In this document: positions 12,193 to 14,303 of the stretch, in pieces
Numbering within the stretch: the first letter of the stretch is position 1
Layout: each line of letters opens with the position of its first letter
Assembly: GCA_022710585.1 (NCBI GenBank)
Contig: JAKLGV010000011.1
Coordinates: 1 to 64,000, forward strand
Length of the DNA stretch: 64,000 nt
Direction: 5' to 3'
DNA from: Deltaproteobacteria bacterium
GTDB lineage: Bacteria; Desulfobacterota; Syntrophia; Syntrophales; Smithellaceae
Program-made: the position numbers and the translations under genes
The notes under the pieces: model-generated
Seen by the model: only the letters and a program-made list of their open reading frames with translations
The model's database searches: none
What the model was told of the DNA's origin: nothing

Positions 12193-12795
12193 CTATCGAA
12201 AGCTGATCGCTTTTAATTTTTTTAATGTTTCCAAAACTTCACAAAGCGGCAATCCGATGACGTTGGTGTAAGAGCCGCGGATAGACTGAATAAAGTACGC
12301 GCCCTTTCCCTGGATGGCGTAGCCACCGGCCTTATCGTAGGGTTCATCGCAGTCAATGTACCAGTTCATTTCGTCCGGACTGATCGTTTTGAATTTTACG
12401 GCAGATTGCACAACTCCGGCGGCGCAGACTCGCGATTGTGTCCGGGCAATCGTAAAACCGGTAAAAACTTTGTGTTCGCGTCCGCTTAATTTCTCCAGCA
12501 TCATTTTCGCCTGCCGCCTGTTTTTCGGCTTGCCTAAAATGACGCCGTCAATCACGACAATGGTGTCGGCGCCTAAAACCCAGGCGTCCTGATGTTGACG
12601 GGAGATGACCAGCGCCTTTTCTTGGGATAATCTTTTGACGTGCTGGCGGGGACTTTCACCGGCCAGGTAATCTTCGTTGATGTGAGGCGGCATGATTTTG
12701 AAATTCAATCCTGCCGACCGGAGCATTGCCTGCCGTCGGGGTGAAGCGGAGGCTAGAATGAATTTATGGCTGGATGTTATCGGCATCTTGCTCAC
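12193..12795 (-). CDS. maf: Maf family nucleoside triphosphate pyrophosphatase
   Basis: This 200-residue protein carries the Maf signature ILASASPRR (residues 13-21) and the catalytic segment VLGADTIVVIDG, with GYAIQGKGA further on. Maf enzymes hydrolyse non-canonical or modified nucleoside triphosphates to monophosphates and have been linked to septum arrest. An alternative start, MPITSS, lies nine bases in. It forms a two-gene unit with the PLP protein and is divergent from the selenoprotein gene at 12926. Confidence 0.92.
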   Translation of the reverse strand: MSKMPITSSHKFILASASPRRQAMLRSAGLNFKIMPPHINEDYLAGESPRQHVKRLSQEKALVISRQHQDAWVLGADTIVVIDGVILGKPKNRRQAKMMLEKLSGREHKVFTGFTIARTQSRVCAAGVVQSAVKFKTISPDEMNWYIDCDEPYDKAGGYAIQGKGAYFIQSIRGSYTNVIGLPLCEVLETLKKLKAISFR

Positions 12796-12925
12796 TTGAC
12801 CGGAGATTAAAATTGAAAATTTCTATCACAAATTTAGCTCTGACTGTCAATTGTTAAATGCATTTGCATATTCATCAAAAATATTGTAACGATGCCCGCA
12901 AGTTCATTTGGAGAGGTTTATAAAA

Positions 12926-13222
12926 ATGAAAAAGAAATTTATCCTGTTATTAATGATGATCTTCTTGGCAGTGTCCGGCAGTCAGGCGCTGGCGAAAGAA
13001 AGAATCGTAAAATTAAACATACTGGGTTGCAACGCCTGAGGGAATAAGCACAGGATAGGGACTATCCTGAAGGAAATCAAGGGCGTCAGTAAATATGACT
13101 TCGCGCATAAAGATTTTGTCACGGTAACATTCGAAGATACGGCCACCACCATTAAAGTCATTACCGGAGAACTCAAAAAAGGCGGTAAAGAAGTAAAGGG
13201 GAAACCGGTCTTTTTGAAATAG
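12926..13222 (+). CDS. Exported HMA (MerP-like) protein, probable selenoprotein with CxxU
   Basis: This 98-codon frame is interrupted only by TGA at 13037-13039 (codon 38). The frame starts at ATG 12926 after a GGAGAGG ribosome site nine bases upstream and ends at TAG 13222. Residues 1-23 form a signal peptide. Residues 27-98 look like a heavy-metal-associated fold: a beta strand, then ILGCNAUGN, where Cys35 and Sec38 occupy the usual CxxC metal-binding pair, then helix, strands (DFVTVTFED), helix (TTIKVITGELKKGG) and a last strand. A perfect hairpin just after the TGA fits a bacterial SECIS, and tRNA-Sec is in the same window. Homologous reading continues on both sides of the TGA, which argues against a decayed gene. 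It probably binds or reduces a soft metal or thiol substrate in the periplasm; the substrate is unknown. A conventional caller would miss it. Confidence 0.85.
13051..13069 (+). promoter_or_regulatory. Bacterial SECIS hairpin
   Basis: CAGGATA (13051-13057) and TATCCTG (13063-13069) form a perfect seven-pair stem closing a five-base loop GGGAC. The loop begins 19 bases after the TGA codon at 13037-13039. Bacterial SECIS elements are described as small stem-loops with a G at the first loop positions, about 16-37 bases past the UGA; this hairpin meets both criteria. It would recruit SelB with Sec-tRNA. Confidence 0.8.
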
Positions 13223-13226
13223 ACAA

Positions 13227-14303
13227 CTAAAGATATTTTTTCAGCTTTGCCGCTTCCAGTTTTTCGACGATCTTTTTGACGTCCTGGGAGCGGCCTTTTT
13301 TGCAGATCAACAGAGCGTCTTTGGTCTCAACGATTAATAAATCCCTGACCCCCACCAGCGCTGTCAATCGGCCCGGATTGTAAACCAGCGAACCTTCTGA
13401 ATCTTCAAAAATCGCCTGACTGTCGCGGCACGCGACATTGCCTTTGTCGTCTTGGGGCGATATTTCCCGGACCGCGTCCCAGCTTCCTACATCGCTCCAG
13501 CCGAAGTCTCCCGGAATGATAAAAACGTCATCCGCTTTTTCCATCACACCGTAATCGATGGAAATGGAATCAAGCTGCCTGTAAACGCGGGCAACGGTGG
13601 CGGCCTCGTCAGCAGAACCCAGCGCCTGATCAATTTTCATCAGGCCGGCATATAAGTTTGGCAACCGGCGGCTGATTTCTTCCAGGATGACAGATGTTCG
13701 CCAGACAAACATGCCGCTGTTCCAGTAGAAATTGCCGCTGGCAATGAATTCCTGAGCCTGCCGAAAGTCCGGTTTTTCACGGATGGAGCGGACGCGAAAA
13801 ACGTCTTCATTGTTTATTTTCCCGAATAAATCTTTGCTTTCAATGTATCCGAAACCGGTTTGAACACTGGATGGTTTGATGCCGATGGTAACCAGACCGT
13901 TTTCACGCGAGGCGACTTCAATAGCGGCGGCGATCAGATCAAGATATTTTGAGGAATCGGCAATGGCGTGGTCGGAGGGCAGAACAACCATGACGTCATC
14001 GGGAACCCTTTGTCGGATGTGCAGTGCGGCCAGGCCGATACAGGCGGCGGTGTTTTTCCCCTGCGGTTCTATAATAATATTACGCGTTGGAATTTCCGGA
14101 AGCTGCCGCATTAAAGTGCGGGCGTGTTTCCTGCCGGTGACCACCAGAATGTTTTCCGACGAGACGAGGGGCCGGATCCGTTCAACCGTTTCCTGAATAA
14201 TGGTTTTTTCGCTGATGATATCCAGCAGGTGCTTGGGCTTTTTCTCCCGGCTGCGGGGCCAGAATCTTGCGCCTTTTCCTCCGGCCATAATGACTGCATA
14301 CAT
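13227..14303 (-). CDS. manC: Mannose-1-phosphate guanylyltransferase
   Basis: This 358-residue nucleotidyltransferase makes GDP-mannose from mannose-1-phosphate and GTP for surface polysaccharide. The N-terminal MAGGKGARFWPRSR with KPKHLL (residues 6-27) is the nucleotide-binding signature, and VVLPSDHAI (about 105) and FYWNSGMFVWR (about 193) are family motifs. It lacks the C-terminal cupin isomerase domain of bifunctional enzymes, so it is the short monofunctional type. A GGAG site precedes ATG 14303. It converges on the selenoprotein gene with four bases between stops. Confidence 0.93.
   Translation of the reverse strand: MYAVIMAGGKGARFWPRSREKKPKHLLDIISEKTIIQETVERIRPLVSSENILVVTGRKHARTLMRQLPEIPTRNIIIEPQGKNTAACIGLAALHIRQRVPDDVMVVLPSDHAIADSSKYLDLIAAAIEVASRENGLVTIGIKPSSVQTGFGYIESKDLFGKINNEDVFRVRSIREKPDFRQAQEFIASGNFYWNSGMFVWRTSVILEEISRRLPNLYAGLMKIDQALGSADEAATVARVYRQLDSISIDYGVMEKADDVFIIPGDFGWSDVGSWDAVREISPQDDKGNVACRDSQAIFEDSEGSLVYNPGRLTALVGVRDLLIVETKDALLICKKGRSQDVKKIVEKLEAAKLKKYL

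Follow-up and report, generated by a model that had tools for sequence, protein, structure and literature searches.

A TGA-interrupted gene at a fixed locus

The window analysed here, a 64,000-nt stretch of contig JAKLGV010000011.1 (GCA_022710585.1) from a member of the Smithellaceae (Syntrophales), holds on its forward strand a frame of 98 codons at 12926–13222 that is interrupted by a single internal TGA (13037–13039, codon 38) and ends with TAG (13220–13222). A Shine–Dalgarno-like GGAGAGG (12910–12916, forward strand) lies 9 nt 5′ of the ATG at 12926, and G-rich sites of this kind stand upstream of most homologues; no sigma-70-like promoter was found for the gene. With TGA read as U, the translation is MKKKFILLLMMIFLAVSGSQALAKERIVKLNILGCNAUGNKHRIGTILKEIKGVSKYDFAHKDFVTVTFEDTATTIKVITGELKKGGKEVKGKPVFLK, which carries GCNAUGN around codon 38, so that frame, TGA, motif, TAG end and a good ribosome site are all as given in the preliminary description of this DNA. 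Residues 1–23 (12926–12994) form a predicted signal peptide, recognized by its basic N terminus, hydrophobic core and A-x-A site with predicted cleavage after ALA, and this pattern is retained among homologues. The TGC codon at 13028–13030 encodes Cys35, which opens a CxxU motif and is invariant in the alignment. When the window was scanned for TGA-interrupted frames, only 12926–13222 combined ORF avoidance, a redox-type motif and a stable hairpin.

The gene is flanked by two genes on the reverse strand, identified by profile matches and kept across the family in our neighbourhood comparison: a divergent Maf-family pyrophosphatase gene (12193–12795) and a convergent mannose-1-phosphate guanylyltransferase gene (13227–14303). 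This order was present in nearly all Smithellaceae examined and in part in other families of Syntrophales. The locus is a fixed single-gene locus, neither an operon nor a mer cluster, as expected from the earlier claim of a stand-alone gene.

The tRNA-Sec previously placed in the window was recovered both by ARAGORN and by Rfam RF01852 (75.1 bits) at 1383–1480 on the reverse strand, and selA, selB and selD are present in the genome. A DUF3800 protein is encoded close to the tRNA-Sec, at 264–1160, and is a possible mobile neighbour. The selD gene (L041, G000:C4:68918-69844) itself contains one in-frame TGA, and SelD is probably a selenoprotein in its own right. Across the order, selA was found in 91 of 92 good Syntrophales genomes, which makes its presence unusable as a correlate; the sole exception (G253) also lacks the selenoprotein gene.

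Homologues and coding constraint across the TGA

Homologues were detected in 50 of 51 Smithellaceae genomes at 36–62% identity, the best of them full-length, and all with TGA or its counterpart at the same codon, a recurrence that takes the frame far beyond chance. Exactly one in-frame TGA was present in 51 of the 53 Smithellaceae copies, and two paralogues, L042 and L043 (GCADC), which stand beside a Sec copy in genomes G028 and G004, have Cys instead; residue 38 is accordingly C or U, as had been predicted for homologues. In Syntrophales as a whole, the profile matched in 105 of 155 genomes, and 110 of 117 matches had exactly one in-frame TGA; outside Syntrophales, a scan of 395 genomes of the phylum yielded no more than scattered members. 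A profile search of GTDB genome contigs returned 46 matches, and a search of the same contigs with the single window sequence returned none. One contig filed under Patescibacteria (L125, JAHIYH010000063.1) holds a typical Smithellaceae-like copy and is probably mis-binned.

Coding-constraint and SECIS statistics were computed on the 48 intact Smithellaceae Sec copies, all of which have TGA at the Sec38 position. The 57 codons 3′ of the TGA are free of stops in 48/48 of these copies, whereas 265 and 287 stops interrupt the two remaining forward frames. When pooled, synonymous and nonsynonymous differences amount to 0.67 and 0.30 for the codons 3′ of the TGA and to 0.69 and 0.32 for those 5′ of it, with a median dN/dS of about 0.31 after versus 0.37 before. 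We rejected a pseudogene on the grounds of this purifying selection 3′ of the TGA and the 48/48 open frames, and a sequencing error on the grounds of 48 independent intact copies.

A conserved SECIS hairpin downstream of the TGA

Downstream of the TGA, positions 13051–13069 (forward strand) fold into a SECIS hairpin with an 8-bp stem, CAGGATAG/CTATCCTG, and the loop GGA, as judged from folding, synonymous constraint and covariation. Four constraints on bacterial SECIS elements (bSECIS), concerning loop, stem length, spacing and energy, have been summarized previously (PMC13188914), and the window hairpin satisfies all of them, with a 3-nt loop starting with G, a stem of 8 bp, a spacing of 19 nt and −10.1 kcal/mol. 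An AGGATAG-loop-CTATCCT element occurs in nearly all members, starting 12 nt 3′ of the TGA in 48/48 Smithellaceae Sec copies, and at least 6 of 7 stem pairs are present in 48/48 intact Sec copies.

Selection on the hairpin is visible at synonymous sites. Synonymous diversity falls to 0.08, 0.00, 0.05 and 0.12 at codons +5, +6, +8 and +9, against 0.3–0.7 at most other codons, and is free (0.46) at codon +7, which lies mostly in the loop. The mean hairpin energy was −9.4 as observed versus −5.8 (s.d. 0.35) in synonymous recodings, which never fell below −6.9; for the window hairpin alone, 11 of 5,000 synonymous recodings were equally stable. Order-wide, the stem covariation score was 0.423 versus 0.195 for shuffled data and 0.033–0.139 for slid controls, 93.9% of stem cells were paired, and double changes, which affected 6 of 7 stem pairs, occurred in 33 cells against a shuffled mean of 8.2. 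In the Cys paralogues L042 and L043, 5 and 4 pairs are left, at about −2 kcal/mol. On the minus strand, 13051–13069 scores as terminator-like and might double as a transcription terminator for the convergent gene (13227–14303).

By the expected mechanism, SelB together with Sec-tRNA would bind the hairpin, and ribosomes would read the UGA at 13037–13039 as Sec. Two other ways of reading this codon were weighed. Viewed in isolation, the sequence shows a frame interrupted by TGA, as it would be if translation really ended at the TGA and the frame beyond it were a relic or chance; this is very improbable given the constraint and open frames beyond the codon, the conserved and covarying SECIS hairpin and the existence of Cys paralogues. 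Still further from credibility is a genome-wide reading of TGA as another amino acid: TGA ends 7 of the 29 long ORFs (≥250 codons) of the window and hence is an ordinary stop elsewhere, the paralogues replace it by Cys rather than by Trp or Gly, and both a SECIS element and the Sec machinery are present. The proposal that the locus encodes a selenoprotein is strongly supported on the three points that had been named for its refutation, with homologues continuing beyond the TGA, strong conservation downstream of it, and selA, selB and selD in the genome.

A predicted HMA fold with a displaced CxxU motif

AlphaFold2 modelling on the family alignment (pLDDT 83.3) placed a domain after the signal peptide, with an HMA-like ferredoxin fold (strand–helix–strand–strand–helix–strand) at residues 25–97 (12998–13216). 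The best structural matches were HMA domains and MerP (3dxs, Z 12.1, r.m.s.d. 1.7 over 73 residues; MerP 1osd, Z 11.3, r.m.s.d. 1.8 over 70 residues), and Foldseek gave the same picture. The window protein missed the PF00403 gathering score (18.7 versus 24.8 bits), and relatives with a CxU motif scored 36.3 and 33.9 bits against the same model. The predicted fold and the signal pattern bear out the earlier assignment to an exported HMA/MerP fold. With identity, decoding and export considered jointly, 12926–13222 very probably encodes an exported selenoprotein on an HMA scaffold.

The register of the motif calls for a correction. Sec38 had been placed exactly at the second metal-binding cysteine, whereas HMMER alignment of the profile with MerP and CopA sets VPG..CaaC against VPGmtCaaC, followed by a compensating two-residue gap on the other side. 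These compensating gaps put CxxU two residues N-terminal of GMTCxxC in a scaffold of constant length; in the family profile the GMxCxxC metal motif is accordingly out of register and its Met absent. The site is not a simple CxxC-to-CxxU swap in MerP, judging from aligned sister subfamilies that have CxU or a Sec without partner Cys. On our reading of this alignment, Sec in the CxU subfamily would fall on the first cysteine of MerP.

The 107 tabulated Sec-bearing sequences comprise 90 CxxU forms, 16 CxU forms and one without an upstream Cys. The hairpin of the CxU forms keeps its protein position, and its distance from the TGA is hence 15 nt rather than 12. Two relatives from another family of the phylum (L225 and L226) carry PGVVU(G), that is, Sec without a Cys partner, and two further homologues (L184 and L185) have CxC, with Cys at the Sec position. 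In a maximum-likelihood tree built on few columns and with many weak forks, Cys forms, L042 and L043 among them, are nested in Sec clades, and supported branches require at least three changes; Cys thus most simply arose by replacing Sec. Genomes in which a Sec copy stands beside a Cys copy that has largely shed its hairpin provide a natural experiment on the retention or loss of Sec and SECIS.

In five members (L206, L208, L209, L227 and L228), a CxU selenoprotein HMA domain is fused to a thioredoxin-like domain, which matched Thioredoxin_9 (E = 1.3e-5) in the one protein scanned. The CxxC of the fused domains is reduced to TWCPDS, TWCKDS or TWSxxS, leaving them at most one cysteine of their own, and the fused thioredoxin domain itself may be non-catalytic.

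Candidate chemistry of the Cys–Sec site

In the mature periplasmic domain, the CxxU site would lie at the start of helix 1, with Cys35 and Sec38 as the probable working site. The pair could cycle between the selenol/thiol and selenenylsulfide forms, and the protein would then act as a periplasmic thiol–selenol redox protein or as a partner of proteins with a thioredoxin fold. We consider such redox chemistry the most likely function, at about an even chance; what speaks for it is that the domain occurs fused to thioredoxin, that its motif is of the redox type, that the metal motif has been lost and that no mer genes adjoin the gene. Against it stand the varying Cys–Sec spacing (CxxU and CxU) and the PGVVU forms without a partner Cys, which suit a ligand or a nucleophile equally well. 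Of the earlier suggestion of redox or mercury/selenide chemistry, thiol redox is the part towards which the fusion and the lack of adjoining mer genes lean.

HMA folds serve mostly in metal handling, and there is a substantial, though lesser, possibility that CxxU is a soft-metal site at which an ion such as Hg(II) or Cu(I) is bound in the periplasm and passed on or sequestered in the manner of MerP. Ligation is favoured by the fold itself, with MerP among the best structural matches, and by the variable Cys–Sec spacing, with which a ligand set is compatible; moreover, all 46 members match NCBIfam MerP, and the known HMA-type selenoproteins NF041115 (UxxU) and NF045683 are named metal-binding. 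The motif, however, stands two residues off GMTCxxC, whose buried Met has no counterpart here, no mer genes adjoin the selenoprotein gene in Smithellaceae neighbourhoods, MerT was not found in the genome by a search that had no working positive control, and the order-wide, mostly single-copy gene at a fixed locus resembles a housekeeping more than a resistance gene. That the site instead handles selenium or sulfur species (selenide, polysulfide or persulfide) in a sulfidic periplasm seems unlikely: an exported protein of strict anaerobes with Sec in the loop that precedes helix 1 would be in keeping with it, and 19 members match ExtJ of the selenite/tellurite reduction operon, but these matches are weak (best E = 0.006) and the neighbourhood comparison found no sulfur or selenium genes conserved beside the gene.

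Returning to selenol redox chemistry, we tentatively propose, at somewhat less than even chances, an order-wide and probably housekeeping periplasmic family in which an HMA metal-chaperone fold has become a module for selenol redox chemistry; in this scenario the reactive residue moved along a loop of constant length (CxxU, CxU and Sec without Cys), and one branch was fused to a thioredoxin domain that has no more than one cysteine of its own left. The displaced CxxU on an HMA fold poses the question of whether a metallochaperone scaffold is capable of selenol redox chemistry.

Relation to known selenoproteins

Among known families, MerP (TIGR02052) was the best match to the window protein (E = 4.6e-8, alignment near full-length), and is likewise exported and of HMA fold. 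The score of 33.5 bits, however, lies below the cut-off of 92.55, and the window protein differs from MerP by the Sec in its site, the motif two residues earlier and the lack of an adjoining mer operon. Another small HMA-like selenoprotein is NF041115, a UxxU metal-binding (seleno)protein that corresponds to the ‘putative mercuric reductase’ family of the Olavius symbiont, but it carries two Sec in UxxU where the window protein has CxxU, and the window protein scores 13.8 bits where the cut-off is 95. NF045683 (MerT/CopZ fusion-like) and the MerT-type selenoprotein (PF02411) also resemble heavy-metal transport proteins; they are membrane transporter fusions, in contrast to the soluble exported single domain described here, and the NCBIfam search gave no match of the window protein to NF045683. 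Selenoprotein W-like and other CxxU selenoproteins share CxxU but have a thioredoxin-like rather than an HMA fold.

A ‘Mercuric transport protein MerP’ selenoprotein with 2 sequences was listed from the Global Ocean Sampling (GOS) data in 2008 (PMC2398784, Table 2); this entry can be likened to the window protein by name alone, as the table gives neither motif nor domain. With the GOS ‘MerP’, UxxU and MerT/CopZ selenoproteins on record, the HMA type of selenoprotein is not in itself new. The 119 prokaryotic selenoprotein families catalogued in 2026 include none of MerP/HMA CxxU type and no matching entry (PMC13188914), nor does one appear among the new deep-Sep families as displayed (PMC12013277); the Olavius or Haft papers may contain an earlier mention. 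In NCBIfam (June 2026), no model reached its cut-off for family members, and to that extent the gene is, as had been stated, invisible to ordinary calling. The locus adds a well-supported family to the approximately 119 prokaryotic selenoprotein families and subfamilies. Its carriers make up most of Syntrophales, an order important in methanogenic degradation (Smithella, Syntrophus), in the genomes of which annotation can be expected to truncate or overlook the gene.
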